Positions 1-21,587 of a stretch of 64,000 bases of DNA are shown here, one piece after another. Within the stretch, counting starts at the first letter, position 1; each line of letters opens with the position of its first letter. Below the pieces are notes generated by a model. The model was given only the letters and a program-made list of their open reading frames with translations, did not search any database and was not told where the DNA came from. Position numbers and translations under genes: made by a program. Origin of the DNA: a virus; IMG/VR virus record IMGVR_UViG_3300028844_005393, positions 1 to 64,000 of that record; one strand, 5' to 3'.

Positions 1-1229
1 GCAAGTGGATCAGGCCAGCAAAATCTTTTGACGTCTCCGTAACTAGCAAATATTTCATCTGCTCCTTCTCCACCAAATACAACTTTGTATCCTTTGTCAC
101 GGATTTCCCAAGATAAAAATAATTGAGCAACTGCCGGAGATACTTGTGTCCATTTGTGGGTTTCTGATGCCCATATGCTTTCTTTTAAATTATTCTGAAT
201 ATCTTCTTTGCTTACATTAACTTCGTGCAATCTAACACCCAATTCTTTTGATGCTATTTTAGCATAATACAAATCATCTTTCAAAGTTTGCTTACGATTA
301 GATGTCACATTCACAACAAATGCTTCAATGTTTGGATTTTTCTTTTTAAGTAGGTATGTGATTATGGTGCTATCTATACCACCACTTAAAATTGTACAAA
401 TTGGAGTATCACTTATTAGTTCATCATCAACTGCTTTTTCCAACCGTTTTCTAAACTCGGATGCGTAGTAATCAATTCCTTTATCTTCTTTCTCAAATAA
501 TTTTAAGTCTGTGTCTGATCGTGTATATAAAGTTGGATTCTCTGGATTAAACTCGGGTTTGAAATCATTCCATCGTTTAATCTCACAGTTTGTTACTCCG
601 ATTAAATTTTCGGAAACCGTTACAATTGTTCCAGGTTCTACTACTTTTATTTTTTCTTCTTCACCCTTTGGTGCTTTGCGATTTCTATCTACATTAAAAA
701 ACTTTAATTCTTTGTTTGCTGATTGTAAACCTTTGACTTCACTGGAAAACATTATTTTGTCATTCTCAAAAACATAATACAAAGGAAGTCTTCCGATGAA
801 ATCTCTTCCTAATGTAAGTTCATTTCTTTCAACATCATAAAACGCAAAACAAAACATTCCTTCAAGTTTTTTCATAGACTCTAATATATTGTCACGATTA
901 TCAATTAAATAATAAAGCAATAATTCCGAGTCACTTCGTTCTGTCTTAAAGTTGTACTTTTTTCTTAATTTTTTGTCGTACTTTTTGAAAAATGGTTTCC
1001 ACATTTCTCCGTTGAATGCTAATACAAACTTTTCGTCTTCTGATATAAGTGGTTGGTTTGCTGACTCGCTTAAATCTTGGATTGATAAACGATTATGGCA
1101 CAAAAAGAAATTGTTTTTCTTGAAGTGGAATATTACATTACCATCTGTTCCACGATGCATCAACGATGCAAGACCAGTTTTTACCTCTTGTATGTTGTTA
1201 AATGAATTACCTCCTAATATTCCGCACAT
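1..1229 (-). CDS. asnB: Asparagine synthase (glutamine-hydrolysing), 3' end outside window
   Basis: This enzyme class takes amide nitrogen from glutamine and transfers it to an adenylated carboxylate; in sugar clusters, relatives amidate sugar acids. The start is the ATG at 1227-1229, giving MCGILGG with the class II amidotransferase nucleophile Cys2. About 409 residues are visible. HRGTDG and NRLSIQDL (glutaminase domain) are followed by the ATP PP-loop SGGIDST near residue 280 and by GEGADEIFASYG near the window edge, which matches the family's GEGADE motif. No clear Shine-Dalgarno is seen in the 34 nt before the start. It is last in a minus-strand run of sugar-nucleotide genes, so I infer a role in modifying a surface glycan rather than bulk asparagine supply. 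The C-terminal part is missing only because the window ends. Confidence 0.93.
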   Translation of the reverse strand, partial: MCGILGGNSFNNIQEVKTGLASLMHRGTDGNVIFHFKKNNFFLCHNRLSIQDLSESANQPLISEDEKFVLAFNGEMWKPFFKKYDKKLRKKYNFKTERSDSELLLYYLIDNRDNILESMKKLEGMFCFAFYDVERNELTLGRDFIGRLPLYYVFENDKIMFSSEVKGLQSANKELKFFNVDRNRKAPKGEEEKIKVVEPGTIVTVSENLIGVTNCEIKRWNDFKPEFNPENPTLYTRSDTDLKLFEKEDKGIDYYASEFRKRLEKAVDDELISDTPICTILSGGIDSTIITYLLKKKNPNIEAFVVNVTSNRKQTLKDDLYYAKIASKELGVRLHEVNVSKEDIQNNLKESIWASETHKWTQVSPAVAQLFLSWEIRDKGYKVVFGGEGADEIFASYGDVKRFCWPDPL

Positions 1230-1263
1230 AATATAAAAATTATATTATATACTATGAGAATAT

Positions 1264-2175
1264 TCAAGACTTATTTTTTTTAACGATGTCGGCAATGTAA
1301 TCTTCTAGTTTGATATTTGCTTGCCAACCGAGGTGTTGATAAGTAAGTGATGGAATTGCTTTTCCGTAGAATCTTTCTCCACGTCTTTCTGGTATCATTA
1401 CATATTCTGTGTTAAACATCTTGGCAACATCAACTATTTTATGTGGAATTCCTGTTCCGAGTGGGTATTCATTCTGCTGACCCTTTTCTGAGGCTAAAAT
1501 AACACCACTAACAATATCGTCAATATGTGTAAAATCTCTTGACTGAATTCCAGGTTCTACAACTGTAAGTGGTTCTCCTTTTGAGTATTGCTCTTCAAAA
1601 ATTCCAATTACGGTTGCGTAGTCACCTGTTCTTACTTGACCCGGACCATAAGCATTATAGAAATATGTAATTTCAAATTTAAGATTAAACCAATCTGCAT
1701 AGTTGTTGATGAGTTCAACCATTTTTGCTTTCATCCACGCATACGGGGATAGATTTTCGTCTTTGCCATCATTACCAAACTTACTTGAACTTGCGGAATA
1801 AATTAACTTTGCGTTTTTTGCGACACAATAATCAAGAACCATTTTTGTTCCTTGCATATTATAGTCCCAACAATTATCAAATGAATCAAAACTCGTTACA
1901 ATTCGTGAGAACTCTCCGAAGTGAAACACAACATCAGGTTCAAATGTATCTGCAATATCTGGCTTGGTGTTATTGGTATCAAATTTTTGTGGAATCAATG
2001 TCTGGGTATCTTTATTCAAATAAGTAACTCGTTTGCTTTTAACATGATTACTTTCATAACCACTACTATAATTGTCAATGCTAACAATCTGTACATTTTT
2101 ATACTTTCTTAAAAGTTTTTTAATAAGTGCAGTTCCTACAAAACCCGCACCACCTGTTATTAGCACCCTTTCCAT
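1264..2175 (-). CDS. NAD-dependent nucleotide-sugar epimerase/dehydratase (extended SDR)
   Basis: A 303-aa extended short-chain dehydrogenase/reductase acting on nucleotide-activated sugars in the cytoplasm. The N-terminal Rossmann motif is TGGAGFVG (GxxGxxG, residues 7-14). A Ser-rich stretch (SASSSKFG) and the catalytic YxxxK (YAWMK, near residue 145) follow, and NAYGPGQ and RDFTHIDD match the substrate-binding region of GalE/RmlB/GMD-like enzymes. The start codon follows the stop of the upstream cytidylyltransferase directly (TAAATG), so the two are probably translationally coupled. The exact substrate (UDP-, GDP- or CDP-sugar, or ADP-heptose) cannot be read from the sequence. Neighbouring sugar genes support a role in making a sugar donor for the glycosyltransferases further upstream. 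Confidence 0.9.
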   Translation of the reverse strand: MERVLITGGAGFVGTALIKKLLRKYKNVQIVSIDNYSSGYESNHVKSKRVTYLNKDTQTLIPQKFDTNNTKPDIADTFEPDVVFHFGEFSRIVTSFDSFDNCWDYNMQGTKMVLDYCVAKNAKLIYSASSSKFGNDGKDENLSPYAWMKAKMVELINNYADWFNLKFEITYFYNAYGPGQVRTGDYATVIGIFEEQYSKGEPLTVVEPGIQSRDFTHIDDIVSGVILASEKGQQNEYPLGTGIPHKIVDVAKMFNTEYVMIPERRGERFYGKAIPSLTYQHLGWQANIKLEDYIADIVKKNKS

Positions 2176-2583
2176 TTACTTTTTTTCTTTAAGTCCAGTT
2201 AGATCACTTGAACTTCTAATTTTGTCTCCAAGTCCATCAATCATTTGTATATTATGTTTTTTGCATATTACACTTTCTGGAACTTCACCCGTACTTCTGT
2301 CTCCACCATTTGCAAAGATGTCGGGTTTAATTGCGTCTAAAGAAGCACATACACTTTTGTCTTGATCAATGCTGAGAAAAACCTCGTCAACGATTCCAAG
2401 TGCATCTACGATTTTTACTCTGTCTGCTTCATCCATAAATGGTTTGCCCTTTTTAAGAACACATTGATGATTGTTGTTTACAATAACAACAAGACGATCA
2501 CCAAGTTTTTTTGCCATTTCTAAATATTCTAAATGTCCTACGTGAATAGGATCAAAGTATCCACTAACTGCTACTGTTTTCAT
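2176..2583 (-). CDS. Cytidylyltransferase-like nucleotidyltransferase (RfaE/TagD type)
   Basis: A 135-aa single-domain nucleotidyltransferase that would transfer CMP or AMP onto a phosphorylated sugar or alcohol. The start is the ATG at 2581-2583, giving MKTVAVSGYFDPIHVGH, which carries the family HxGH signature (HVGH); a longer reading from 2655 would overlap the cupin gene by 68 nt and adds nothing family-like. A C-terminal RSSSDL segment matches the family's ISSTxI-like motif. Length fits the small cytidylyltransferase fold (glycerol-3-phosphate cytidylyltransferase, HldE C-terminal domain). It starts 5 nt after the cupin gene ends and abuts the epimerase. I infer that it activates a heptose- or polyol-like building block. 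Confidence 0.88.
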   Translation of the reverse strand: MKTVAVSGYFDPIHVGHLEYLEMAKKLGDRLVVIVNNNHQCVLKKGKPFMDEADRVKIVDALGIVDEVFLSIDQDKSVCASLDAIKPDIFANGGDRSTGEVPESVICKKHNIQMIDGLGDKIRSSSDLTGLKEKK

Positions 2584-2587
2584 AATG

Positions 2588-2959
2588 TTACTCTGATTTG
2601 TGTTTTTCTGGACGATCATAATCATCTTGAACTCGGACAATGTCATCTTCACCAAAATAAGTTCCAGTTTGAACTTCCACTAAAATCATATCTTCTGAAT
2701 CACTTGGATTTGCCATTCTATGCTTTGCTCCAAGTGGAATCAATACGGTTTCACCTGCTTTGTAATCTTCTGTGACATCATCTAAAGTTATTCTTGCCAC
2801 ACCACTAACAACCGTCCATGCTTCTTGTCGTTTGTGATGATATTGATAACTTAGTCTTTGTCCCGGTTTTACATATATGCGTTTAACTTTGCAGTATTCT
2901 GCGTCTAGTAGAATTTCGTAGTTTCCCCAAGGTCGTATACTATCATCTTTATTACTCAT
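2588..2959 (-). CDS. Mannose-6-phosphate isomerase-type cupin
   Basis: A 123-aa single-domain cupin resembling the C-terminal phosphomannose isomerase domain of bifunctional GDP-mannose enzymes. Visible family features are RPWGNYE at the N-terminus, LSYQYHHKRQEAWTVVSG (cupin motif 1 with the metal-binding His pair and Glu), and IPLGAKHRMANP (cupin motif 2 with the last metal His). These residues coordinate the divalent metal in this family. It lies just upstream of the cytidylyltransferase and would interconvert mannose-6-P and fructose-6-P or a related hexose phosphate. Small stand-alone versions are common in phage and LPS clusters, and their substrate is often unproven. Confidence 0.88.
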   Translation of the reverse strand: MSNKDDSIRPWGNYEILLDAEYCKVKRIYVKPGQRLSYQYHHKRQEAWTVVSGVARITLDDVTEDYKAGETVLIPLGAKHRMANPSDSEDMILVEVQTGTYFGEDDIVRVQDDYDRPEKHKSE

Positions 2960-2963
2960 AATT

Positions 2964-3095
2964 TTATCCCCACCTATCTGCTAAATCTTGTTCAGATATA
3001 TTAGATTTTTTTGGTTGTATATATTTTATTGGTTTATTTAAAATAATTATACTATGTTTTTTTAATTTAATAAATACTTTTTTTGATGTATCCAT
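2964..3095 (-). CDS. Small hypothetical protein, 43 aa
   Basis: A short reading frame starting at the ATG at 3093-3095, one base after the stop of the sulfotransferase gene and ending 4 nt before the cupin start. A weak purine-rich GGAAA lies about 10 nt upstream. The product is basic with an acidic C-terminal SEQDLADRWG. A longer in-frame reading from 3227 overlaps the sulfotransferase heavily and is disfavoured. I recognise no family. The tight fit between its neighbours is the main support for it being a gene. Confidence 0.4.
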   Translation of the reverse strand: MDTSKKVFIKLKKHSIIILNKPIKYIQPKKSNISEQDLADRWG

Positions 3096-3096
3096 T

Positions 3097-3711
3097 TTAT
3101 TTGTTTCCACATTTATATTTAAACATCTCAATAATTTTTTTGTGACGCTGTGCAACAACTGCTCCCGATTCATAATTGTAATATTCCCAATATTTTCTAT
3201 TTTTCTTCTTAAATGGAAATTTCCCAATTTGTTTCAAAGGTGTGTACGGAAGTTTTAATTTATTGCAAACTTTTTTATAGTCAGTTGCAAGACGTTCAAA
3301 TTGCATATAACAATCCATCGTTGCAGTTCCATCTTCGTCAAAATAAAAAGGTTCATTAAAATGAGTGTAGTTTCCTATCCACTTTGCAAATTGTTCTTTA
3401 AACTCATATCCATTAAATTTTAATTTAACAAGTTTTTCAATGTTTTCACGGTGATTTTCTCCAACTAAACCACCATCTTGCCACCAAAAATAAGAAACCA
3501 TTCTATCCCACGGATTTCTTGCAATTGTAAATTTGAAATATTCATTGAATATTTTCTCTCCAACGATGTCAAGAGTGTCTTTTGGGTTTCTATGTGTATT
3601 GTCTATGATGTCATCATCACCACACTGTGTAATTAAATTGTGTTCTACACTATTTCCACCCACCTTCCAAGGTTTAAAAAATATAAATTTATGTTTGTGT
3701 GAAACTATCAT
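3097..3711 (-). CDS. Sulfotransferase family protein
   Basis: A 204-aa protein with the two PAPS-binding elements of membrane-type carbohydrate sulfotransferases. The 5'-phosphosulfate loop is at the N-terminus (FFKPWKVGGNSVEHN, matching the family's K-x-GG-S/T-S/x) and the 3'-phosphate element is FTIARNPWDRMVSYF (RNPxxRxxS) near residue 62. It would move sulfate from PAPS to a hydroxyl of a glycan or small molecule. It overlaps the upstream DHH gene by 4 nt (ATGA). Within this glycan island the natural guess is sulfation of the phage-encoded or host surface sugar. No sulfate-activation genes are visible here, so PAPS would come from the host. Confidence 0.85.
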   Translation of the reverse strand: MIVSHKHKFIFFKPWKVGGNSVEHNLITQCGDDDIIDNTHRNPKDTLDIVGEKIFNEYFKFTIARNPWDRMVSYFWWQDGGLVGENHRENIEKLVKLKFNGYEFKEQFAKWIGNYTHFNEPFYFDEDGTATMDCYMQFERLATDYKKVCNKLKLPYTPLKQIGKFPFKKKNRKYWEYYNYESGAVVAQRHKKIIEMFKYKCGNK

Positions 3712-4658
3712 CCATAAACCTCTTCAAATTTTTCAATAAAGTTTTTAAGTTCAATTTTAGGAAGTTCATTTATGCCAGCTGCTTTCTCACGACCTCCTCC
3801 TGATGGAAATTGTAATGCAAGTTTACTTGCCCCTACTGGATTATCTTTTGGTGAACGAATACTTACACGATAATTGAATTGATTTATATTTGTTAAAATA
3901 GCAAATGCTTTACTTGGATTATTTGTTGTTTGTTTGTTGCTATAAATTCCTGAATATCTTATAGATGCTTTTGTGTTCGGTAGTAATATTACATCACCAA
4001 TGCTTGATGTATGTAAAACTTCCGATGAGTTTAACTCAAGTTCGTCTGATTTCATTTGTTGATTTATTTTTGCGTAAATCTTAGAATTTTTTCTGTATTG
4101 AAACGGAGAACGAAATCTTTCAAGGTCTAAATAAACATCTTTAGGGTGCACTACGAGATCAGATTCTTCGTTTCCATAACCATTGTAGTTTAAAGTTTCA
4201 CCGATTTCTCTTAAAATCAACATAGCATACTCGTTGAAACATGGATTTAATTTTTCTGCTTGTTCGTGTAAATTGTCTCCGTATGCTCCACATATTGTCC
4301 AAGGACGATGCAATCCGTCAGTTGCCTTGTCAACTATTATATTAGTACAACAATTAGGGTCGGTATCTACTTTGATTGAAAAGTTGTTACCAAATTCGGT
4401 GTCACCTGTTTCATGGTGATCAAACCATTTTATTTTATTTCCGTTTTTTAATATCGGTTCTACATATTCAGAATTTGATAATAAAGATATATCAAACACC
4501 GACAACGATGCATCGGTTATATCAACTAAGTGTCTTAGTAACTTTACATCACGCTTTACTCCTGTGATTAACTCACTTTTTCTAGGAAAGTGTAAACGAT
4601 ACTGGTGTAAACTTATTAGTCCGTCTGCGTCTCCGTTAAAGATGTCATAATTTTTCAT
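3708..4658 (-). CDS. DHH-family phosphoesterase
   Basis: A 316-aa protein of the DHH/DHHA1 superfamily, which includes RecJ, NrnA oligoribonucleases and cyclic-dinucleotide phosphodiesterases. The start is the ATG at 4656-4658, one base after the upstream dehydrogenase ends; a longer reading to 4727 would overlap that gene. Motif I is NGDADGL near residue 8, the DHH motif is WFDHHETG near residue 78, and the DHHA1 signature is SGGGREKAAGIN near the C-terminus. These supply the metal ligands of the family. It sits inside the sugar gene cluster, where nucleic-acid turnover is not an obvious need. The substrate (nanoRNA, ssDNA, cyclic dinucleotide) cannot be decided from sequence. Confidence 0.87.
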   Translation of the reverse strand: MKNYDIFNGDADGLISLHQYRLHFPRKSELITGVKRDVKLLRHLVDITDASLSVFDISLLSNSEYVEPILKNGNKIKWFDHHETGDTEFGNNFSIKVDTDPNCCTNIIVDKATDGLHRPWTICGAYGDNLHEQAEKLNPCFNEYAMLILREIGETLNYNGYGNEESDLVVHPKDVYLDLERFRSPFQYRKNSKIYAKINQQMKSDELELNSSEVLHTSSIGDVILLPNTKASIRYSGIYSNKQTTNNPSKAFAILTNINQFNYRVSIRSPKDNPVGASKLALQFPSGGGREKAAGINELPKIELKNFIEKFEEVYG

Positions 4659-4659
4659 A

Positions 4660-5502
4660 TTATTCTTCTGCCACAGCCCGTCCTTTATCTGATTTCCAGT
4701 CTTGTTCGGGTCTGTCAATTTCTTCATTTCTTTTAATTACCGCATCAAGTATCGGTGTTTCTATATCATTGTTTTTTGCGTAACTTGCAAGTGCATTGGT
4801 GTCTTTTGGAAAACAAGTTCCTCCAAATCCTCTGCGACCATCGTGTCCTGGTACTTTGGTGTGACCAATTCCGATTCTTTTATCTTGTGTTGCAATACAA
4901 CGAACATTTTCATAATCAATGTCAAGTTCTGTACAAATGCTTTCAAGTTCATTGAAGAATCCAACTTTTACACTTAGAAATACATTCTTTAAGTACTTTA
5001 TCATTTCTGCTTCTGCTGGTTTGCATTGAATTACATTTTTATTTACAACTGATCCGTTTCCGTTGTTATATGCAAGTTCAAACATTCTTTTCATTTTTTC
5101 ATATAAAAATAAATCACCAGAACCTAGAATCCATTGGTCGCAGTTTTTAAAGTCTTCTTTCCAGTTTTTCTCTGTAAGAAACTCTGGCATAAAGTTAACA
5201 TCAAGTTCTTCACAAGTTCCAGGTGGAACAGTTGAACGAAGAACTATATACTTTGTGTCGTCTATTTCTTGAATTTCTTCGCATACTGCACGAACAATGT
5301 CAAGGTTTGCGCTTCCATCTTTGTTCATTGGTGTAGGAACTGCAACGAAAATAATTTCGGACTCTTCTACAAATGTCTCTATATCCAGTTCTTTGGGTTC
5401 TCTTTTATCTTCTAGTACATCCCACACCAATACATCTACATATGGTCTTAACAAGGTCATCGCATGACCCACAAATCCGTTTCCAACAACTCCAACTTTC
5501 AT
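4660..5502 (-). CDS. UDP-glucose/GDP-mannose dehydrogenase family protein, short form
   Basis: A 280-aa NAD-dependent enzyme of the family that oxidises C6 of a nucleotide sugar to a uronate. I chose the ATG at 5500-5502 because GGAG at about 5514-5517 is well spaced from it; a TTG nine bases upstream is too close. The NAD-binding motif is VVGNGFVG (residues 4-11). The catalytic cysteine motif GFGGTCFPKD is near residue 230 and the conserved Lys lies in CKPAEAEMIKYLKN. Typical family members are about 390-430 aa; this one stops shortly after the catalytic motif and lacks most or all of the C-terminal nucleotide-sugar-binding domain. Short forms like this are seen in marine phages. It probably feeds a uronic acid donor into the cluster, although its activity is uncertain. 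Confidence 0.85.
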   Translation of the reverse strand: MKVGVVGNGFVGHAMTLLRPYVDVLVWDVLEDKREPKELDIETFVEESEIIFVAVPTPMNKDGSANLDIVRAVCEEIQEIDDTKYIVLRSTVPPGTCEELDVNFMPEFLTEKNWKEDFKNCDQWILGSGDLFLYEKMKRMFELAYNNGNGSVVNKNVIQCKPAEAEMIKYLKNVFLSVKVGFFNELESICTELDIDYENVRCIATQDKRIGIGHTKVPGHDGRRGFGGTCFPKDTNALASYAKNNDIETPILDAVIKRNEEIDRPEQDWKSDKGRAVAEE

Positions 5503-5570
5503 ATAACGCAATCTCCAGTTTTTTTTTTTGTGCTATATAACCCTTTTTATTATAAGTATTTCCTTTTGTG

Positions 5571-6182
5571 TTATTTAACTTGAAATCTTCTTAGTTTCCA
5601 GAATAACCAAACAAATAATCTTGGAACTTTAAGAATAATACCATTTCCTCTGACAATTGGTGTTTCTGCGTATAGTCGTCTTGATATTATTTTTTTGTAC
5701 CAACTTACATTTTCAAACTTACAATCAACGATGTATATATCTTTTGTTTTAGGTAAATCATCTATATCGTAGTCCGACCAATTTCCGAGGTCTACAAATG
5801 CTCCGTCTATAATTGTGCGGAAATCATTGACGAATGTACAATTCTTGATGGTGATGTTAGATGCCTGACATTTTATTGTAAAGTGTTGCTTGGTGTTTTT
5901 TGAAATGAATCTGCAATTTTCAAACAACATAAAACCACCACGAACAATATCAACTACATCTTCAAACCCACCGATTATAGTAGTATTGGTTACTACAACA
6001 TCACTACAATAAGATAATTTTAATCCTTCTGCAACTTCTCCTGCTTCAATGTGACAATTATCAATTCTTATTTTTTTGCTTGGCATACCAGGTCTCCACA
6101 TAAAACCCAAAGCATTGCTTTGTATGCCATTTTCAATATTACCTATAAACCTTTTATTTTTTATCGTGATTACATCAATCAC
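5571..6182 (-). CDS. Right-handed beta-helix repeat protein
   Basis: A 203-aa protein with no clear enzyme motif but a repeated pattern of short strands with N/D/C turns (IRIDNCHIE, VVVTNTTIIGG, FENCRFISK, ITIKNCTFVN, IYIVDCKFEN) spaced about 22-25 residues apart, as in parallel beta-helix folds. The C-terminus is basic and Trp-rich (LFVWLFWKLRR) and could contact a membrane. Its ATG overlaps the stop of the upstream lipoprotein gene by 4 nt. Beta-helix proteins in phages often handle or bind polysaccharide. No catalytic residues can be assigned, so binding rather than cleavage is equally possible. Confidence 0.7.
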   Translation of the reverse strand: MIDVITIKNKRFIGNIENGIQSNALGFMWRPGMPSKKIRIDNCHIEAGEVAEGLKLSYCSDVVVTNTTIIGGFEDVVDIVRGGFMLFENCRFISKNTKQHFTIKCQASNITIKNCTFVNDFRTIIDGAFVDLGNWSDYDIDDLPKTKDIYIVDCKFENVSWYKKIISRRLYAETPIVRGNGIILKVPRLFVWLFWKLRRFQVK

Positions 6183-6988
6183 TTAAACTTTCTCTTTATG
6201 CGGTCAATTGCATTTTTGTCTGTTACGTTTGTGGAGTTTCCCAAAGACGACCCGAATATATTTAATACCTCATTCTTGCTTAATTTTTTATCGTCATCAA
6301 GAGCACGGACTTTTTCTTTTGCGTCGTGTACACCTTTTATTATGTTGCTTGTCATTTGACTACTTGTAATTCCAAACCAGGTAATAAGTCCTGGTATTCT
6401 TGCCACCAACCAACCTATTAGTTGCGTAATTATAGGAAGAAGTGCAGGTCCTGCAACTATTAAAACTGCTACTGCCCCTATTAGTCCAAATGTTCCAGTT
6501 AACCATGCCCACATAGAACTGAAAAAACCATCCTTTTGTTCTTTTGCTTTAAGTTCACCTAAACTAATAAGTTTTTCCTCTGTATCTTTAAGGTCGTGTC
6601 CTAGAATTTGTTTGCGTCTGCTAAGTTCAATTACATCTTGTTCTCTGTCTGTTAGATTTTCTATTGCAACTTCGTTTTGTGCAATAAGGTCTTCTACATG
6701 AATTTTGTCACCAGGTTGTGGAAGGCCTACTATGGTTTGTGCTTCTTTTGCTAGTTGAAGTGCCACTAAGTCTTCTGATGATTTATTCTCTGATAAAGAT
6801 AGTGCTTCAACCGTACCCGTTACATAAGAACGTGTATGTCTTTCAAGTTCACTTTCTTTTCTTGTTATTTCTCCTGCAATTTCTTGTCTGTCTTGTTTTA
6901 GTCCCCAATTTGGTATTGTTATACATCCTGTAAAAAGGAAAGATACCAATAGAACTACTGATATATTCATAATTTTTTTAACTTTCAT
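6179..6988 (-). CDS. Predicted lipoprotein with coiled coil and membrane segments
   Basis: A 269-aa protein with a typical lipoprotein signal: basic MKVKK, a hydrophobic stretch, and the lipobox LFTGC with the acylated Cys at residue 22. A charged, helical, probably coiled-coil region follows (residues about 30-150). Next come hydrophobic segments between about 155 and 210 (WAWLTGTFGLIGAVAVLIVAG and a second one ending near ITWFG) and a basic C-terminus. A protein with both a lipid anchor and internal membrane segments would associate with the host envelope. It overlaps the upstream glycosyltransferase gene by 11 nt and the beta-helix gene by 4 nt. I recognise no family; superinfection exclusion or host envelope modification are guesses only. 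Confidence 0.65.
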   Translation of the reverse strand: MKVKKIMNISVVLLVSFLFTGCITIPNWGLKQDRQEIAGEITRKESELERHTRSYVTGTVEALSLSENKSSEDLVALQLAKEAQTIVGLPQPGDKIHVEDLIAQNEVAIENLTDREQDVIELSRRKQILGHDLKDTEEKLISLGELKAKEQKDGFFSSMWAWLTGTFGLIGAVAVLIVAGPALLPIITQLIGWLVARIPGLITWFGITSSQMTSNIIKGVHDAKEKVRALDDDKKLSKNEVLNIFGSSLGNSTNVTDKNAIDRIKRKFK

Positions 6989-7850
6989 TGTTTTTATATA
7001 TATCCTGATTTATTCTTTTTTTAAAATTATTATATTCCGAGGTTAAAAGCATTTCTGATTTTTTTCTAAAATTATTTATCTTAAAATTCTTTTTATTGTG
7101 TTTTATTAGTGTACGATCCTCGCACACAATATTGTTTTCAAGAATATACTGTTGAACAGGTATTCCGTTTTCTTTCATGTAGTCACAACAATACATCATA
7201 AATGTGTCATCTGGTCCATATCCTACAAATGATTTTGGAATTCCTATATATTTTGCAAGTCTAGCAGAAATACAAGTAAACCACCCACCTGCCCATTTGA
7301 ATTTAGGGCATTTTGTTATCCGTGAATCTCCGTGATTTGTTTTTAGTATTTTTTGAATATCTACATTTTCACACATACCAGTTGGGTTTTTTAAATATAA
7401 TTGATTCACCAAGCAATCCCAAGTTGTGTCCCACAATCTTACAAGTTGAGGAGTAATAATGTAATTGAAGTTATCTCTTTTTATGGTTTCACTTGCACCG
7501 AGCATATTTGTGATTGTGTTGTCGTTGAAATGTAAATCCACATCCAAGAAAATCAAAGAATCATGTGGGGATGCTCTTTCTATACACTCTCTGCGGTGCT
7601 CGTTAACTCCAAAGTATTCATTTGTGATAGAAGATGTAATACCTACACTCCTATTGTTTGTTTTGTTGTATTCTTTCATTACATTGATAATATTATCATT
7701 GTTTTTTATTACACCATCGTTGATGTTTAAAATACTATCAATTTTAATATCACGGATGTTATTTAAATCGCACACATTAAGAATTTGATTTACCACTCGT
7801 CTGTAGTTATCAATTTCATGTGGGAATATGTGAATTATTATCGTATTCAT
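6978..7850 (-). CDS. Glycosyltransferase, GT-A type
   Basis: A 290-aa putative glycosyltransferase. The GT-A metal motif is seen as FLDVDLHFND near residue 100, and the acceptor-side signature is AGGWFTCISARLAKYIGIP followed by GYGPDDTFMMYC near residue 215, typical of family 2-like enzymes in which a D/E-D pair provides the catalytic base. The N-terminal part is less canonical than in GT2. It overlaps the following large transferase gene by 4 nt and the lipoprotein gene by 11 nt, so all three are likely co-translated. The sugar and acceptor are unknown. Confidence 0.78.
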   Translation of the reverse strand: MNTIIIHIFPHEIDNYRRVVNQILNVCDLNNIRDIKIDSILNINDGVIKNNDNIINVMKEYNKTNNRSVGITSSITNEYFGVNEHRRECIERASPHDSLIFLDVDLHFNDNTITNMLGASETIKRDNFNYIITPQLVRLWDTTWDCLVNQLYLKNPTGMCENVDIQKILKTNHGDSRITKCPKFKWAGGWFTCISARLAKYIGIPKSFVGYGPDDTFMMYCCDYMKENGIPVQQYILENNIVCEDRTLIKHNKKNFKINNFRKKSEMLLTSEYNNFKKRINQDIYKNNES

Positions 7851-10096
7851 TTGAATAAATTGTAAAACGCAAGTCTTAGAAAGTGCTCTTCTTTATCTGG
7901 ATTTTTTTCATATTGCTTTAGTATTTTTGAGTAAAACATTTTAGGTTTTCGGTATACGCATTTACGTGGAACTGAAAAGCACGTTCCTGTATATTTGGTT
8001 GTATCTTCTGTATATATTTGATTTAGTGTTTGCTTATAATAGTTTCTTATTGTGTTATGATTTTTAATTTTAAGATGGGGGCTTATGTTCGTTTTTGATA
8101 AAACTCCATCGATAACACAAAAACTATTTGAATTTAAAATTGAAGACTTAGAAATCTTGCTTGCTATATTTTTTTGTTTCTCGTTGTTGGCAAATACTAA
8201 ATAATTTGGTAGGGAATTGTAGTGTGTAACAATAAATGATAAAAAAATACCAAATGAACTATATGTTGGTTTGTGTGTGAATGAGTTTAAGCAAACATCA
8301 ACACCACCGTCCACCAGTACGTTGCAAGAAATTCCAAAATTTTTGAGTGAGAACAATTCATTTTTGGTTCGTGCACCAACGAGTACAATATCACTATCTG
8401 TTATTTTGAATTTAGATAGACATTGCTTTGTTGTAAATTTTTCTAATGTTGTTATTTCTTTATTTATACTGAAGTTACAATTTACGTAGGAACTGTCTTT
8501 GTATATTTTTGTAACCTCTTCGTTATTTTTCTTTGAAAGTTTTTCGTCTTCTTTTCGGTTTATAAAATACTCTTTTAATTTTTGCTCTAGTGATTTATTT
8601 TTTATTAAATAAATTCCGTTATTAAGTTCAATATCTGTCGTTGGGGTGAACTCACATTGTTTTAATATTTTTTCTCGGTTGATGTATCTTCTGTTTACTT
8701 CGTTTCCGTGAAACATGACGTCTATGTCTAGATTTGCATAACCAACACCATTTTTAATTTTCTTGTTCCTCTTGCACCAGTTTATGAATTCTAGTTTAAA
8801 ATCATAAGTGGTATTTTTAAAAAACCTATCACGTAATATTATGTCATGGGTTTCTTTGTAATAATAAAAACCAATTAGATTTAGTAAATCACCACCACCA
8901 ACAACTGCTAAATCGAATAGCAGATTTTTTTCAAGAAAACTTCTGTGGTAACAACATCCATATCCAGGTTCTCCCTTTCTGTCTAGTAGTATTTGTGTAT
9001 CATTCTTTTTATTACAATGTGTTAGTTTATATGCAGATGAGTTTTTTTCTTTATTTTCACTTTTTACATTTTCTTTTTTTGAATTGGAAAATATTTGAGC
9101 AACCCCATAAAATTCAGTTGCAAGTATTATATCCTTCCACCAATCTATTTTGTTAAACTTAATATCAGCATCAATCCACATTATATATTTGTAATTCTTC
9201 ACCAATAATCTTTTTATTCCTACATTAAGAAGTTGCTCCTTCATCCAAAACACGGACTCGGTTTTAATTGATATGCAATTTTTTGTTAATTTGTTAACTC
9301 TGTATTTTGAGTTTTCGGTATACGACTCAACTACAAGTGGTTCTATATTTGTTGATCTTATTTCCGACAGAAATTTACTAAAATTTAAAAACTTACTTTT
9401 ATAGTCACATGGATTAAAATAGCAACAAACTACTCCTATATCAGATTGCGGTGGGTTGTAATTTGTTAATTCTTTATATAACCTATTGCTATTTGTTTGG
9501 TCGTCTATGCTTTTTATGTGTCTTAAATAATAATCATCGGTATATTTTAACTGAATCCGTGATGTTGCTCCTACTATCTGTTCGTGTAGTTTTTTGTTCC
9601 ATCTAAGTTTATTATTATTTTTATATATACGACCTTGATAATCTGGAAAGTTAATTGCATTGTTTTTATCTTTGTCAATTGACCACCCATAGTGTTTTGC
9701 CGTTTTTTCATCAATTCCGTCAAAATAGTTTAATCTAGGTATCCAAAATAAATCAGAATTATTTTTTAATATAATTGAGTGAACTTCTTTGATTAAGGTT
9801 TCTGATGGAAGTTCATCTGAATCTAAGTTGAATATATAATCTCCGTTGCATATAGAAAAGAAAATATTTTTATGAGAAGCAAAGTCATAAAGTAGTTTTC
9901 TGTAAATATATTTATCTACTTTAGTTTCAAGATACTCTTTAATTCGTTCACATTTACTGAAATCTGAAATTACTATTATTTCGTCTTTTTCTTTTTTGTG
10001 TATGTTGATGTAGTCTACTAATCCTATAAATGACTCGGTTTCCTCACTTACACATATAGCATAACTGATGCTAGGATTTGCTTGCGTCAAACTCAT
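7847..10096 (-). CDS. Multidomain glycosyltransferase (two GT-A-like domains plus a C-terminal DUF3431-like domain)
   Basis: A 749-aa protein that appears to carry three units. Residues 1 to about 200 form a GT2-like domain with the acidic motif FNLDSDELPS near residue 90. Residues about 215-480 form a second GT-A-like unit with MWIDADIKF (D-x-D) and a GEPGYGCCYHRSFL/GGGDLL acceptor region. Residues about 560-749 resemble DUF3431-type putative glycosyltransferases (LPNYLVFANNEKQ, and SVPRKCVYRKPKMFYSKIL near the end). The last assignment is from recollection of that family's pattern and is weaker. The start ATG at 10096 is preceded by GGATTCGG. It overlaps the upstream gene by 26 nt. A single polypeptide adding two or three sugars in sequence is an attractive reading. 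Confidence 0.75.
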   Translation of the reverse strand: MSLTQANPSISYAICVSEETESFIGLVDYINIHKKEKDEIIVISDFSKCERIKEYLETKVDKYIYRKLLYDFASHKNIFFSICNGDYIFNLDSDELPSETLIKEVHSIILKNNSDLFWIPRLNYFDGIDEKTAKHYGWSIDKDKNNAINFPDYQGRIYKNNNKLRWNKKLHEQIVGATSRIQLKYTDDYYLRHIKSIDDQTNSNRLYKELTNYNPPQSDIGVVCCYFNPCDYKSKFLNFSKFLSEIRSTNIEPLVVESYTENSKYRVNKLTKNCISIKTESVFWMKEQLLNVGIKRLLVKNYKYIMWIDADIKFNKIDWWKDIILATEFYGVAQIFSNSKKENVKSENKEKNSSAYKLTHCNKKNDTQILLDRKGEPGYGCCYHRSFLEKNLLFDLAVVGGGDLLNLIGFYYYKETHDIILRDRFFKNTTYDFKLEFINWCKRNKKIKNGVGYANLDIDVMFHGNEVNRRYINREKILKQCEFTPTTDIELNNGIYLIKNKSLEQKLKEYFINRKEDEKLSKKNNEEVTKIYKDSSYVNCNFSINKEITTLEKFTTKQCLSKFKITDSDIVLVGARTKNELFSLKNFGISCNVLVDGGVDVCLNSFTHKPTYSSFGIFLSFIVTHYNSLPNYLVFANNEKQKNIASKISKSSILNSNSFCVIDGVLSKTNISPHLKIKNHNTIRNYYKQTLNQIYTEDTTKYTGTCFSVPRKCVYRKPKMFYSKILKQYEKNPDKEEHFLRLAFYNLFK

Positions 10097-10766
10097 TTTC
10101 CGAATCCGCCCCCGGTTTGTCTACAAAGTTGCGTAGATCGTCTAACATTTCATAAAACGAATCTAAACTACCGAATCTATCTGTTATGAGTGTTTTAAAT
10201 CTACTGTTATTTAAATTGTCAATATCAGACTTCAATATTTTATTTAGTAACATTTTGCTTTGTTTTATTTCAGTCAAACTTTCGGTTTTATTAATAATGG
10301 CAGATGGGTGTGTGTTGTTATCAAATAATTTTAACTTCTTCCAATCCAACATATATAATTTTGGTCTTCTGATTTCACTCATTTTATATGTCCGATAGCA
10401 ATCATAACGAATTAAATTCTTTTTTACATAGTTCTGATAAAAAGAACGTGGTCTATCTATGAGTTCCGAAAACGGCCCTTTTAATTCAAGTTTTCTTTTT
10501 ATTTGTGAAATTGTATCTTTTAGTATTACTCGTTTTAAAAAAGCATATAACTTACTCTCGGGAATAAATTCAAGTGAAACTCCGTGTAAAAGAGGAGTTC
10601 CACCTTTATTAAATTTCCCCAGCACCAAGACGAGTCTATTTACACGTCTTCTAGTTACTTCTGTTCGGTAACGAAATGATATAATATGACCAGGTTGTAT
10701 TCTTGGTTTTGTTACTGAAACATCACCACCGATAAGTCTTTTTATATATTGGGCATAGAAACTCAT
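10071..10766 (-). CDS. Conserved T4-like phage hypothetical protein
   Basis: A 231-aa protein. The N-terminal third has the pattern PGHIISFRYRT, then NRLVLVLGKF, then LLHGVSLEFIPES followed by a hydrophobic helix. I associate this order (PGxLIxFxY, LVLVLG, GLNLxYxP) with a conserved T4-like phage protein of uncertain function. The C-terminal half is charged and helical. It has no sugar-enzyme motifs, so it is probably a phage core gene lying inside the glycan island. It starts 19 nt downstream of a glycosyltransferase and its end overlaps the next gene. Relatives have sometimes been labelled as virion or DNA-end proteins, but I cannot confirm that here. Confidence 0.6.
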   Translation of the reverse strand: MSFYAQYIKRLIGGDVSVTKPRIQPGHIISFRYRTEVTRRRVNRLVLVLGKFNKGGTPLLHGVSLEFIPESKLYAFLKRVILKDTISQIKRKLELKGPFSELIDRPRSFYQNYVKKNLIRYDCYRTYKMSEIRRPKLYMLDWKKLKLFDNNTHPSAIINKTESLTEIKQSKMLLNKILKSDIDNLNNSRFKTLITDRFGSLDSFYEMLDDLRNFVDKPGADSENEFDASKS

Positions 10767-10785
10767 ATTAATATACTAATGTATA

Positions 10786-11937
10786 TTATATATATGAATT
10801 TATTAACTCTTTATACCTATCTCCGATTGTTTTCTTGTTATGAGTAGTCTTGATTGAGTTTACTATACTTTCAACTTCAACTCTATACGATTCGTAGTTA
10901 GTCTGTACATCTTTCAACTTTTCTGAGAATTGTTCTATATCTACTTCAAATTTAGAATATTCTCCAACAGAATTATCACTTTCTGTTTTTTCTGTCTTAC
11001 CCGAGACTTTAAATTTATCTGATGTTAGAAACTCATTTGCGGATGAAGTCTCAGACACGATAACAGGTTTATTGTTTATCAATGACTCGAATATACTCCT
11101 TTCAAAAAACTTTCCACGTGACATACTGATTGTGGTTTTTATCTTTGAGTGACGATATAACTCACGAACTTCGTGTGATGTAAAATGGCCATGTAACACA
11201 TAAATACTTGGATTCTCTATATGTGAGTCTTTTAAAATCTCGGTAATATGTGATTGTATTTTATCGTAGTCGGTGCGACTATAATTAAGGTAGTTTGTAC
11301 GCAACAACAATGCTGGTTTATTTTTAATGTTTTGTGTTGAATGTATAAAAGAACGTATTAGTGCGTTGATATTATTAACCTCATTGCTTGGACTTACCTT
11401 TAAGTTCCAATTACCATCAAATAAAAAACAATATTCTTCTTTGATACTCTCAATGTATTTTACCAATTCACCTGACTTATCATACGATGTAGGTTTGTGG
11501 GTATGAATACACCTTTCAATGACTTGTAGATCAGTTTCTGTTTTATCTGAAAGATAATCACTTGCATATTTTGATGGAACTATTATTTTATCCATCTTAC
11601 TACACAACTCTGCTTCTGTTTTGGTAAAGAGTGTAGTTGATTGAGTAATAATTCCTATATTGTTTTTTCCTATTGTTTTAAAGTCTGATGGATTTCCCAT
11701 TTTTACATAAAGATCAACATACTCAACTCGTGATGTGTGTAGTTTGCGCTTTAATATCTTTGTTATGCTTTCGTTTTCAAATACAAAGGAACATTGATTA
11801 CCAGGTGTCGGTGTATCTATAAAAAATATATCATACTTTGAATCTAAGTTACAAATATAATCAGCAACTTCTCGTGCATAGTCACCATTTTCTGTTAAAG
11901 AAGTGATTGGTGAATCGTATATTAGTATTGGTTTCAT
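10786..11937 (-). CDS. Glycosyltransferase, GT-B fold (group 1-like)
   Basis: A 383-aa putative GT-B transferase. The N-terminal domain has an opening YDSPITSLTENGDYAREVA that would hold the acceptor side. The middle has KIIVPSKYASDYL, as in GT4 enzymes where a VPS(x)2 segment precedes the donor domain. The donor domain contains NWNLKVSPSNEV, VLHGHFTSHEVRELYRHSK and GKFFERSIFESLINNKPVIVSETSSANEFL, matching the E-x7-E region of GT4 in a divergent form. Its ATG overlaps the stop of the preceding glycosyltransferase gene by 4 nt. Donor and acceptor are unknown. Confidence 0.78.
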   Translation of the reverse strand: MKPILIYDSPITSLTENGDYAREVADYICNLDSKYDIFFIDTPTPGNQCSFVFENESITKILKRKLHTSRVEYVDLYVKMGNPSDFKTIGKNNIGIITQSTTLFTKTEAELCSKMDKIIVPSKYASDYLSDKTETDLQVIERCIHTHKPTSYDKSGELVKYIESIKEEYCFLFDGNWNLKVSPSNEVNNINALIRSFIHSTQNIKNKPALLLRTNYLNYSRTDYDKIQSHITEILKDSHIENPSIYVLHGHFTSHEVRELYRHSKIKTTISMSRGKFFERSIFESLINNKPVIVSETSSANEFLTSDKFKVSGKTEKTESDNSVGEYSKFEVDIEQFSEKLKDVQTNYESYRVEVESIVNSIKTTHNKKTIGDRYKELINSYI

Positions 11938-13175
11938 GTTATTTTGCTAAATCTAAATCGTTCGGGTTGTTTATAGTTGTATATTAGTTCGTCAATTTGA
12001 CTTGATATATTAGAACACATAGATTCTTCTGTAAAATTATTATCTCTCAAGAAGTCCAAATAAGAATCCATTTTAATATTTTTTCTTCTTTTATATAAAG
12101 TGTTTATAGATTTTCCAACCGACTTTGGGTCTACATAATCTGCATGAATATATGGAGTTTGTTGTGTTCCCCGTATACAAGTCACACTTGGTTCTACAAC
12201 TTCTGTCCAATCTTCATTAATTTGATCCTTTAGACCACCTGTGTTATTTACGATGATTGGAGTTTTGGTAGCAACTGCTTCAAGTGTACTAAGTCCAAAC
12301 CCCTCGTTGGATGCTATATTAATAACGCAACTTGATAGGTTGTACATATTATTTAAAATTGGTTCAAGTACCATTTCATCGGAAATCAATACAGGTAAAT
12401 CTGAATATAAATCATCCAGGATTGAATTGATGTTTACTCCGTTAGGTGCAGTTGGGTTGGTGTGAATCAATAAAACAACATCTTCTTTATTCTTTTTACT
12501 TAATTTATTATAGAATTCATTGAATCCTGACATTAATATTGAAAGTTCTTTTCTTTGAATATTTGTTGCATTGCAAAACAAAACAAATTCGTAATCTTTA
12601 CCTAAAAAGTCTTTTCTGTTTTGTGAAATCATTTTATCATCTTGTGGATAAAACTTTTTTGTATTGATTCCATGTGGTGTGTATTTTACACATGGGTGAT
12701 CTGTAACTACATTAGTAACGCACTCATGTGTTAATTTACTAATACAACCTATTGCATCACAACTATTATATATACTTGATAAAAATTTAGGATATGGGGT
12801 GTTGTCCCACACATGGTAGTAATATATTGGACATAAACTTCGTACCTCGTGCTCTGCTTCAAATAACCAATTAAATCTATGAGGATCGGTCATTATCAAG
12901 ATAGCAGATGCAGATTCTGTTCTAATTACACTTCGCAATAAGTCTAACGAACCATACTCGGATGTGCCATATAATTTAAAATATGCTTTAGGATTTTTTG
13001 TTGCTTTTGATACAGATTCTGAAATATCTATTACTTCACTTGAGTCTAGACCAGCTGCAATTTGAACAATGTCATACTTTTGTGAAAGTTCTAAGGATAT
13101 AGCACGTAGAATATTACCGACACCTGTTGGTTGTCGTATATCATCTCCTATTATTACTATTTTTTTATTTTGCAC
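11934..13175 (-). CDS. Glycosyltransferase family 4-like protein
   Basis: A 413-aa GT-B transferase. The N-terminal glycine loop is QPTGVGNILRAI (residues about 15-26). The linker has GCISKLTHECV. The donor-binding domain has FVLFCNATNIQRKELSILMSGF and the classical GT4 motif NEGFGLSTLEAVATKTPIIV with its two conserved Glu residues, then NNTGGLKDQI. It is followed by a 4-nt overlap into the next GT-B gene, so the two may act in sequence on one glycan. The first gene upstream is a small RHH-like protein on the same strand, 37 nt away. Confidence 0.88.
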   Translation of the reverse strand: MQNKKIVIIGDDIRQPTGVGNILRAISLELSQKYDIVQIAAGLDSSEVIDISESVSKATKNPKAYFKLYGTSEYGSLDLLRSVIRTESASAILIMTDPHRFNWLFEAEHEVRSLCPIYYYHVWDNTPYPKFLSSIYNSCDAIGCISKLTHECVTNVVTDHPCVKYTPHGINTKKFYPQDDKMISQNRKDFLGKDYEFVLFCNATNIQRKELSILMSGFNEFYNKLSKKNKEDVVLLIHTNPTAPNGVNINSILDDLYSDLPVLISDEMVLEPILNNMYNLSSCVINIASNEGFGLSTLEAVATKTPIIVNNTGGLKDQINEDWTEVVEPSVTCIRGTQQTPYIHADYVDPKSVGKSINTLYKRRKNIKMDSYLDFLRDNNFTEESMCSNISSQIDELIYNYKQPERFRFSKIT

Positions 13176-13212: not shown

Positions 13213-13410
13213 TTAATACTTATTGTCATTATCAAAGATTTTTGCTTCGTCGAGTTTTTTTTCAAAGTCTCCATCTTTCAAATATTGCTCGATTGCACGA
13301 TTAACCAATTTTTGTAAAGTCATAGGTGAGTCAATCGTCTTCAATTTAAATTTTGAGTAATTGTCGGACAAAACCTTAACGGTTGTTAACTTGTAATTTG
13401 CATCATTCAT
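13213..13410 (-). CDS. Ribbon-helix-helix-like small protein
   Basis: A 65-aa protein with a beta-strand start (YKLTTVKVL) followed by two helices (YSKFKLKTIDS and LQKLVNRAIEQYLKD), the layout of CopG/Arc-type DNA-binding proteins. The LQKLVNRxxxxYLxD stretch is one I associate with a conserved small protein of marine T4-like phages. It would dimerise to bind DNA. A candidate late-promoter box lies 36 nt upstream of the start on the same strand. Its target is unknown. Confidence 0.68.
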   Translation of the reverse strand: MNDANYKLTTVKVLSDNYSKFKLKTIDSPMTLQKLVNRAIEQYLKDGDFEKKLDEAKIFDNDNKY

Positions 13411-13445
13411 TTATCATAAATATTAGGGTAATTAAAAAAAAATCA

Positions 13446-13453
13446 TATTTATT
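13446..13453 (-). promoter_or_regulatory. Candidate T4-type late promoter box upstream of the RHH gene
   Basis: Minus strand reads AATAAATA, fitting the NATAAATA late-promoter box of T4-like marine phages. It lies in the 50-nt gap and 36 nt before the ATG of the RHH gene. In such AT-rich sequence the match alone is weak; the position is the main support. Confidence 0.35.
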
Positions 13454-13460
13454 ATAAAAA

Positions 13461-13826
13461 TTAAAGTTCACTTCCCCACTTTGGTGGGTCTAGTGGACAT
13501 TTGCTGGTAGATAATAATAATTTACCACTACTACACCCACATTTTAAACATCGTGCAATTTTTGTCTGTTTAATTTCTTGCCAGTGCTGACAACCTCTAC
13601 ATATGTTTAACCTTTTATTCCATTGCTCACTACTAACAACTGGTCGACCTGCTCGTTGCCACTCTACTAATGCTTTAGATAAATTATTTGCTAGATCAAA
13701 AAAACCAACTTTACCTTCTGATTGTGATGAACTTACATTATCTGTATTTGCATTATTACTTTCCGATGAAGTGTTTGATTCTTCGTCTTCGAGTTTTTTG
13801 TATCGTTTAAAAAATCTTCTGCCCAT
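13461..13826 (-). CDS. Zinc-ribbon-like small protein
   Basis: A 121-aa protein. The first 45 residues are basic then rich in Ser, Asn and Glu (disordered). Residues about 75-115 carry cysteines as CRGCQHW, RCLKCGCSSG and KCPL, a CxxC...CxxCxC...C arrangement that suggests a treble-clef or ribbon binding Zn. The C-terminal CPLDPPKWG is a motif I have seen in phage hypothetical proteins. It is the first gene of the minus-strand block and is divergent from the plus-strand block. A nucleic-acid-binding or scaffold role is possible, but nothing catalytic is visible. Confidence 0.65.
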   Translation of the reverse strand: MGRRFFKRYKKLEDEESNTSSESNNANTDNVSSSQSEGKVGFFDLANNLSKALVEWQRAGRPVVSSEQWNKRLNICRGCQHWQEIKQTKIARCLKCGCSSGKLLLSTSKCPLDPPKWGSEL

Positions 13827-14221: not shown

Positions 14222-14977
14222 ATGTCAAGGAAAAAAACCAAAACTGTAAACAAAAACCTATTAGCAAATGCCCATATAGAAGAGGAGATGCAAGATAATC
14301 AACTTACTCCACTTAGAAAGCTTAAAATTAAATTAAATAAAAAATTTACTGAAAAGCAAACTTTGTTAAATAAAATAGCATTAGATAATGATACAAAACT
14401 AATTTTCATAGATGGACCCGCCGGAACTGCAAAAACTTGGTTAAGTGTTTATTGTGGTCTCCAATTATTTCAGGAGCAGAAAATAGAAGAGATGATATAT
14501 GTTAGAAGTGCTGTAGAAAGTTCTGATCAAAAACTTGGGTTTCTACCGGGAGCTCAAGATGATAAAATGGCTCCCTACTTAGAACCATTTAAAGATAAAC
14601 TAGAGGAACTACTTAACCCAATTGACATAAAATATTTACAAGAAGAAGAACGAATATATGGTATACCTGTTGGATTTCTCCGAGGGGCAAGTTGGGAAAA
14701 CAAATTTATCTTAGTAGATGAAGCACAAAATTTATCAGAAAAAGAGATGATTACCATAATGACACGTATAGGTGAAAACTGTAAAGTTTTTATCTGTGGA
14801 GACGCAATGCAGAGTGACATAGGCAACAGAAGTGGGTTTAATAACATACTCAACTTATTTGAAGATGAGGCCTCAAAAAATCACGGAATTCACACTTTTA
14901 AATTCACAGAAGAGGACATTGTTAGAAGTCAATTAGTAAAATTTATAATTACTAAGTTAAAAAGTTTATCAAAATAA
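14222..14977 (+). CDS. phoH: PhoH-like ATPase
   Basis: A 251-aa P-loop ATPase of the PhoH family, common in marine T4-like phages. After a charged N-terminal extension of about 55 residues, the Walker A motif is DGPAGTAKTWLS and the Walker B is ILVDEAQNL near residue 163. Family blocks YVRSAVESSDQKLGFLPG, GIPVGFLRGASWEN and FICGDAMQSDI are present. The start ATG has GGAG 9 nt upstream (TGGAGAAATAACG). PhoH proteins are linked to phosphate stress in bacteria and some act as RNA helicases with PIN partners; the role in phages is unresolved. The gene stands apart from a 62-nt A/T-rich gap leading to the tail fibre genes. Confidence 0.95.
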   Translation: MSRKKTKTVNKNLLANAHIEEEMQDNQLTPLRKLKIKLNKKFTEKQTLLNKIALDNDTKLIFIDGPAGTAKTWLSVYCGLQLFQEQKIEEMIYVRSAVESSDQKLGFLPGAQDDKMAPYLEPFKDKLEELLNPIDIKYLQEEERIYGIPVGFLRGASWENKFILVDEAQNLSEKEMITIMTRIGENCKVFICGDAMQSDIGNRSGFNNILNLFEDEASKNHGIHTFKFTEEDIVRSQLVKFIITKLKSLSK

Positions 14978-21092: not shown

Positions 21093-21587
21093 ATGAAAAA
21101 GTATCAATATAAGTCCAATGGAACAGGACTAAATAAACACGTTCCAAATATGCGAGACGAATTCTTAACTCCATTTGATTCTCTGTTTGACAAAATGGTA
21201 AATCAAGCATTTCCAAATTTTGGTCAAGAATTTGGAGTTAATTTTTTTGGGAATAGTTCTTACCCACGAGTAAATGTAGCAGACCTAAGAGACGAAGTCT
21301 TGATAGAAGCAGAAATCGCAGGTCTAGGAAAAGATGATGTGTCTGTTGAATACGAAGATGGAATGCTTACCATTTCTGGAGAAAAAAAACCAGAATTAGA
21401 AAATCCTGAAATTAGGTATGTATACAAGGAACTAAAACGTTCATCTTTCAAACGTTCATTTAAAGTAGACGAGTCTACATTGAATGTAGAAAAAATATCT
21501 GCTAAGTTTGATAACGGTATACTAAATGTTAGAATTCCTAAGAAAGAGGTAGTTGAAACTAAAGCAAAAAAAGTAAAAATTTTGTAA
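21093..21587 (+). CDS. hsp20: Small heat shock protein Hsp20
   Basis: A 164-aa alpha-crystallin-type chaperone of the kind found in most marine T4-like phages. The N-terminal arm (residues 1-50) is followed by the crystallin domain: PRVNVADLRDEVLIEAEIAG, LTISGEKKP, RSSFKRSFKVDE and the family's closing block FDNGILNVRIPKK (A-x-x-x-N-G-x-L pattern). The C-terminal tail is Lys-rich with a final KVKIL that could serve as the I-x-I-type oligomer contact. Such chaperones hold unfolding proteins, and in phages may help virion assembly. A strong terminator follows directly. Confidence 0.95.
   Translation: MKKYQYKSNGTGLNKHVPNMRDEFLTPFDSLFDKMVNQAFPNFGQEFGVNFFGNSSYPRVNVADLRDEVLIEAEIAGLGKDDVSVEYEDGMLTISGEKKPELENPEIRYVYKELKRSSFKRSFKVDESTLNVEKISAKFDNGILNVRIPKKEVVETKAKKVKIL

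Follow-up and report, generated by a model that had tools for sequence, protein, structure and literature searches.

The minus-strand gene block

The window analysed here comprises bases 1-64000 of the IMG/VR virus record IMGVR_UViG_3300028844_005393, which is 80,180 bases long and belongs to an uncultured marine virus of bacteria, and the system in question is a block of sugar-metabolism genes with a gene for a glutamine-dependent AsnB-type amidotransferase (asnB) at its edge. Base 1 of the record is base 1 of the window, so that asnB is truncated where the record stops. Between position 13826 and the end of the record, 16 open reading frames (ORFs) follow one another closely on the minus strand. 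An earlier note had described positions 1-13175 as one overlapping block of donor-sugar enzymes, four glycosyltransferase (GT) genes, a sulfotransferase and an AsnB-type gene, which together might build an amidated, sulfated oligosaccharide. Every gene named there is present on the minus strand, as judged by Pfam, PHROGs, NCBIfam or a structure model; the list was incomplete in that it omitted a DHH phosphoesterase, a lipoprotein, a beta-helix protein and a protein of 231 amino acids (aa). The genes do form a tight same-strand run, with intergenic distances of -26 to +59 bp when the likely starts of cytT and of the DHH gene are used, but the run is broken by one larger gap of 137 bp (2960-3096). 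Sequence comparison, which supplies all of the evidence, makes it fairly likely that the run holds two functional modules arranged head to tail: a glycan module reaching from GTd to epi, and a base-modification cassette headed by asnB.

The donor-sugar genes are four. The gene epi (1264-2175) encodes an NAD-dependent sugar epimerase/dehydratase (Pfam Epimerase, 8e-34), and cytT (2176-2583; the listed ORF starts at 2655, the likely start being the ATG at 2583) a cytidylyltransferase-like protein nearest to the HldE/RfaE adenylyltransferase domain (1.1e-14). They are followed by a cupin (2588-2959) of the mannose-6-phosphate isomerase (type II C-terminal) family (PF01050, 3.1e-32; GMP_PMI domain) and by UGDH (4660-5511; 2.2e-25), a short (283 aa) UDP-glucose/GDP-mannose (nucleotide-sugar) dehydrogenase. 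The active-site motif GFGGTCFPKD of UGDH is invariant and its K/N residues are kept. The protein has no C-terminal UDP-binding domain, and its alignment to UGDHs in the PDB stops before that domain. Other marine phages have this short form too, at 76% identity. It is the marine-phage type of contigs L037, L040, L041 and L045, and in L041 and L045 it stands by itself, flanked by DNA polymerase and RecA genes. UGDH is directly followed by epi in Vibrio phage Kuja and in an Oceanospirillaceae locus (L083), and marine contigs L037 and L040 have the pair in the opposite order; because of this adjacency the substrate of epi is probably the product of UGDH. Kuja resembles the window in having UGDH and then the same epimerase family (its UGDH-wcaG pair), but its UGDH is full-length (413 aa) and no GT block is annotated beside it. 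UGDH and epi would probably convert a UDP-hexose to a donor that is either a pentose or derived from a uronate, and a second activated sugar would come from cytT and the cupin, which is of phosphomannose isomerase type.

Four genes are assigned to sugar transfer. GTd (11934-13175), of the GT4/group-1 type (PF00534, 5.1e-8; GT4-conflict, 1.3e-7), and GTb (7847-10096), with a GT2 domain (PF00535, 7.6e-12) and a second, GT-A-like half recognized by alignment, pass the Pfam cut-offs. The second half of GTb has a D-x-D motif and is encoded by a separate gene in several relatives. GTc (10786-11937), a GT-B glycosyltransferase, was assigned from its PHROG (phrog_2170, 1.4e-11) and from structure-profile matches to GT4 enzymes in the PDB (2e-4). 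GTa (6978-7850) is weak by sequence and was assigned from its AlphaFold model (predicted local distance difference test score, pLDDT, 87), the Foldseek matches of which are GT-A glycosyltransferases, i.e. GalNAc-T, chondroitin synthase and GtrB. Between GTb and GTc lies the conserved 231-aa protein (10071-10766), known from alignment, which is as divergent as the glycosyltransferases and gave zero family or structure matches in Pfam, PHROGs and the PDB. The block also encodes a lipoprotein (6179-6988; lipobox FTGC), present in all relatives and without a match in family searches, and two accessory proteins: a right-handed beta-helix protein (5571-6182; PF13229, 1.5e-8) and a sulfotransferase of the type dependent on 3'-phosphoadenosine-5'-phosphosulfate (PAPS; 3097-3711; Pfam, 3.4e-6; phrog_3347, 1.4e-11).

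Conservation of the glycan module

Relatives were found by scanning IMG/VR contigs with the DHH and UGDH proteins, and those that carry the glycan block are here called island phages; many of them are fragments, so that the absence of a gene is no proof of its loss. About 20 uncultured contigs share the gene order next to a divergent phoH (14222-14977, plus strand; PF02562, 4.5e-53), and the phoH flank is found in every relative whose contig extends that far. The same order in related phages was what the earlier note had proposed to look for, and since it recurs in so many contigs it is not a product of chance. Across these contigs the donor enzymes are mostly 82-96% identical to those of the window and the glycosyltransferases 29-65%. 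Median identities are 93% for the cupin, 92% for cytT, 88% for UGDH and 86% for epi; the four GTs reach medians of 32 to 41%, the 231-aa protein 36% and the flanking phoH 68%. The donor set is thus fixed and the transfer set fast-changing, a pattern to be expected of phages that meet different acceptors or immune pressures. Other genes are patchy, the sulfotransferase being present in 8 contigs, the beta-helix protein in 9 and asnB in 7. The sulfation step of the earlier note fares accordingly: the sulfotransferase has conserved PAPS-binding motifs, the 5'-phosphosulfate-binding and 3'-phosphate-binding motifs being intact (K-x-G and RNPWxRxxS invariant; K16/G18, R65/S73), but it is optional and missing from about half of the relatives. 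With conserved donor synthesis, fast-changing glycosyltransferases and optional sulfation within one phage clade, the module amounts to a natural experiment.

Clusters of this kind have precedents. The marine T4-like phages P-SSM2, S-SSM7 and S-SM2 and the pelagimyophages carry lipopolysaccharide (LPS)/glycosyltransferase clusters, which in pelagimyophages include GT, rfaE and UGDH genes and in P-SSM2 lie near phoH (PMC3037559, PMC7029224). The likeness extends to the clustering of an rfaE-type gene, a UDP-glucose dehydrogenase and an epimerase with several GTs, and to the variable region with phoH adjoining. The window cluster differs in that its order is fixed within one uncultured clade, that it includes the DHH, lipoprotein, beta-helix and optional sulfotransferase genes, and that it abuts the asnB cassette. 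The hosts of the known clusters are cyanobacteria or SAR11, and the epi of the window virus has its nearest cellular relatives in SAR11 genomes, which would be an indirect host link at most. Its genes mark the glycan module as a new addition to this known type.

Target of the glycan and role of the DHH protein

Sugar transfer to an acceptor, presumably a cytoplasmic step, would be the task of the four fast-evolving glycosyltransferases (one ORF apparently holding two GT domains), and the product would be modified by the optional sulfotransferase. The acceptor would most likely be a host outer-membrane glycan precursor of SAR11 type, and less likely a virion protein. Cellular relatives of epi are 44-46% identical in Pelagibacteraceae, 41-43% in three further genomes and at most 31% elsewhere, and the nearest of them sit in surface-polysaccharide loci of Pelagibacteraceae (SAR11); because of this kinship a host surface glycan is favoured, with low confidence. 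That the glycan is instead added to capsid or tail proteins is the less probable choice, though one to be taken seriously. The block abuts virion genes and phoH, an extra galactosyltransferase-like gene of GT2 type (19580-20305, plus strand; PF10111, 1.8e-7; phrog_1721) lies outside it among plus-strand genes, and the rapid divergence of the GTs would suit a virion target. The lipid-carrier sugar-1-phosphate transferase PF02397 was found in 0 of 7 related records (Wzx and Wzy were not searched), so that the block does not present itself as a stand-alone O-antigen or capsule locus. However, host enzymes of undecaprenyl phosphate or lipid A-core synthesis could provide the acceptor, no acceptor motif or glycoprotein evidence points to virion proteins, and the closest cellular kin of epi are the SAR11 genes just mentioned.

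The DHH/DHHA1 phosphoesterase (3708-4658 from its likely start; listed ORF 3708-4727) is of the NrnA/pAp-phosphatase-like type according to Pfam and PHROGs. Its motifs FNGDADG, FDHHE and GGGREKAAG are invariant, and by sequence it has no relatives among cultured phages or in the PDB. Phosphatase activity on pAp (3'-phosphoadenosine-5'-phosphate) is known for DHH/NrnA-type enzymes (PMC8268124). Its gene overlaps that of the sulfotransferase by 4 bp, and with its motifs intact the protein might support the sulfotransferase by clearing the by-product pAp. This role is unlikely, since the DHH gene is retained in all relatives whose contigs span the site, whether or not the sulfotransferase is present; the protein is thus not simply the pAp phosphatase of the sulfotransferase and must have at least one other role, e.g. 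nanoRNA degradation.

asnB and its cassette

The visible part of asnB (3-1229, minus strand; Pfam Asn_synthase, 6.7e-33) encodes 409 aa, the full length being 548 aa in relative L049. Like asparagine synthetase B of Escherichia coli (1CT9), the protein combines glutaminase and synthetase domains, with Cys at position 2 and the SGGxDS motif, and the phage orthologues keep the whole glutaminase site (Cys2, R49, N74, D98). True asparagine synthetases need a T-x-x-R segment (T322/R325, TTIR) for the formation of beta-aspartyl-AMP. In the phage proteins this motif is replaced: where the E. coli enzyme has VTTIRAS they have WTQVSPA or TVQMEV, and THKWTQ(V/I)SP is invariant in the phage orthologues. 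Because the glutaminase site is kept and T-x-x-R is lost, AsnB likely uses glutamine to amidate a carboxylate substrate that is not aspartate.

In island phages with longer contigs, asnB is followed by genes for a 2-hydroxyacid dehydrogenase, an AspH-family 2-oxoglutarate-Fe(II) oxygenase, a threonine-synthase/dehydratase-type pyridoxal phosphate (PLP) enzyme and a protein of 528 aa that carries the amino-methyltransferase motifs DPSAGWGGR and TSPPYFN. In other island phages asnB and the dehydrogenase gene are gone, and a different set of AspH-like, YunG-like and PLP genes fills the exact interval between epi and the methyltransferase gene. Three of these phages, with contigs of 151-170 kb, keep the whole glycan block, including UGDH and all GTs, and have no asnB anywhere. 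Conversely, 17 distant contigs carry asnB at 58-64% identity (75% in one fragment) with no sugar gene nearby; in the longer of these it lies among genes for ribonucleotide reductase, RecA, DNA polymerase or the clamp, with dehydrogenase, PLP and methyltransferase genes after it. Among the six distant asnB records checked whole, five lack epi and the sixth has only paralogues of 28-38%. asnB therefore appears to open a separate, swappable cassette between epi and the methyltransferase gene, and it probably has no role in the sugars although it stands at the edge of their block. Tandem copies of the TSPPY methyltransferase-like protein, two in each case and about 71% alike, were seen in L004 (15416-18588), L006 (16191-19384) and L051.

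The cassette across viral contigs

A scan with the PLP enzyme yielded 69 loci outside the island phages, each at least 6 kb long, some of which may be near-duplicates and not independent events. asnB is a partner in 49 of them and an amino-DNA-methyltransferase in 49, a thymidylate-synthase (TS)-family gene (called by PF00303 above its cut-off) in 39, the dehydrogenase in 17 and an AspH-like gene in 16; the sugar genes of the window block occur in none of the 69. The TS-family gene lies directly upstream of asnB in 35 loci, and in 36 asnB directly adjoins the PLP gene. Examples of the TS-family protein in this position are L293 (5820-6506), L281 (5790-6488) and L253 (5820-6506), in which the order is methyltransferase, TS-like protein, asnB and PLP enzyme. 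In Erythrobacter phage ZS04 an 812-aa protein annotated as a DNA methyltransferase (L077:2326-4764) has the Pfam domain N6_N4_Mtase and then a PLP domain in one fusion, in Erythrobacter phage R6L (L079) the PLP match lies under the DNA modification methylase gene, and in Microcystis phage Mae-JY30 the PLP and methyltransferase genes are adjacent.

The asnB cassette is most likely an undescribed phage pathway of DNA-base hypermodification, in which asnB, the 2-hydroxyacid dehydrogenase, the AspH-like oxygenase, the PLP enzyme and the amino-DNA-methyltransferase would make a hypermodified base; both the chemistry and DNA as the target are read from these gene associations. AsnB would amidate a carboxylate carried by the base or by its precursor. 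A fuller version can be put forward tentatively, at close to an even chance. It supposes a widespread pathway formed by an amino-DNA-methyltransferase of non-standard architecture, a PLP enzyme of fold type II and a glutamine-dependent AsnB, joined according to lineage by a TS-family enzyme or by the AspH-type oxygenase and 2-hydroxyacid dehydrogenase, and yielding an amide-ended base side chain without the route through CmoA and carboxy-S-adenosylmethionine (Cx-SAM).

The closest precedent is CmoY, the AsnB homologue of Synechococcus phage S-B43, which ligates glycine to 5-carboxymethylcytosine in DNA; the same study described a second CmoY cluster with a glutaminase domain and found no N4/N6 carboxymethyltransferases (Yang et al. 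2025, PMC12783734). The likeness of the window's relatives to this CmoA-CmoX-CmoY system lies in a phage AsnB homologue beside a DNA methyltransferase, and the glutaminase domain of their AsnB recalls the second CmoY cluster. In contrast, the cassette methyltransferase has the TSPPY motif of amino-methyltransferases and that of S-B43 the C5-type SPPC, and the cassette adds a PLP enzyme, a 2-hydroxyacid dehydrogenase, an AspH-like oxygenase and TS-family partners. The Cx-SAM synthase CmoA (TIGR00740) had no credible match in 28 records, the one match, of 12 bits, containing internal stops. Identity with the CmoA/X/Y system was not adopted, and the cassette is better placed near that system than within it, because of the lack of a credible CmoA, the amino-type methyltransferase motif and the PLP enzyme.

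The cassette occurs in dozens of viral contigs and is the larger point of this analysis than the glycan module. If it does modify DNA, it would add new chemistry to phage base hypermodification and show that AsnB-type genes which viral data sets assign to glycan or amino-acid metabolism may have DNA as their target.

One pathway or two modules

Several observations weigh against the division into a glycan module and a base-modification cassette. asnB lies on the same strand as epi and only 34 bp after it, which makes co-transcription with the sugar genes likely. Its cassette partners lie outside the record, which stops within asnB, and for the window they are taken from relatives at 88-95% identity. 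In island phages no TS-family gene was detected, so that a base handle made by such an enzyme would be missing there: PF00303 (thymidylate synthase/dCMP hydroxymethylase) matched in 0 of 8 island records, the largest of 170 kb, with positive controls, and no TS-like relative was found either. The structure model of the cassette methyltransferase was too poor (pLDDT 58.7) and was not used.

The nearness of asnB to epi is also an argument for the single pathway of the earlier note, leading to an amidated, sulfated oligosaccharide; in it UGDH would make a uronate, AsnB would convert this to a uronamide and sulfate would come from the sulfotransferase. The block does contain UGDH, and AsnB-like amidotransferases of the WbpS/WbtH type amidate O-antigen uronates in O-antigen loci. 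Amidation as a step of the glycan pathway is nevertheless improbable: asnB is missing from the three relatives of 151-170 kb in which UGDH and every GT are retained, it occurs elsewhere in replication regions without sugar genes, and it travels with PLP-enzyme, 2-hydroxyacid dehydrogenase, AspH-type oxygenase, TS-family and amino-DNA-methyltransferase genes. RB69-like phages carry arabinosyl-hydroxymethylcytosine in their DNA, and glycosylation of phage DNA by the GTs would fit the resemblance of UGDH and the epimerase to a UDP-pentose route, the many matches of epi in E. coli phages and the adjoining cassette, but this is very unlikely because no TS/dCMP-hydroxymethylase was found in the eight island records, and the cassette occurs elsewhere without these GTs.

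Other features of the window

At the head of the minus-strand run stand two small conserved ORFs of 65 and 121 aa (13213-13826), and the T4 late-promoter motif TATAAATA was not found there. A promoter and terminator scan of the block gave counts near the shuffle expectation and permits no statement on separate transcription; a promoter-like match of 10/12 before asnB (1267-1239) could be due to chance. The 137-bp gap holds a small minus-strand ORF (2964-3227). Its C-terminus, ISEQDLADRWG, matches an ORF of 83 aa that L006 has in this position, and it appears to be a small gene that has altered or is decaying.

No match to the block was found in cultured phages by megablast. The virus has virion and replication genes of T4 type (baseplate wedge, phrog_219/6; SbcC-like, phrog_77; primase), and its closest cultured isolates are remote, at about 43%. 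Two giant plus-strand ORFs, of 3785 aa (33411-44768; no Pfam match) and 3147 aa (47833-57276), are probably virion or tail proteins. A small heat shock protein of the Hsp20 type is encoded at 21093-21587 on the plus strand (phrog_432, 1e-20).

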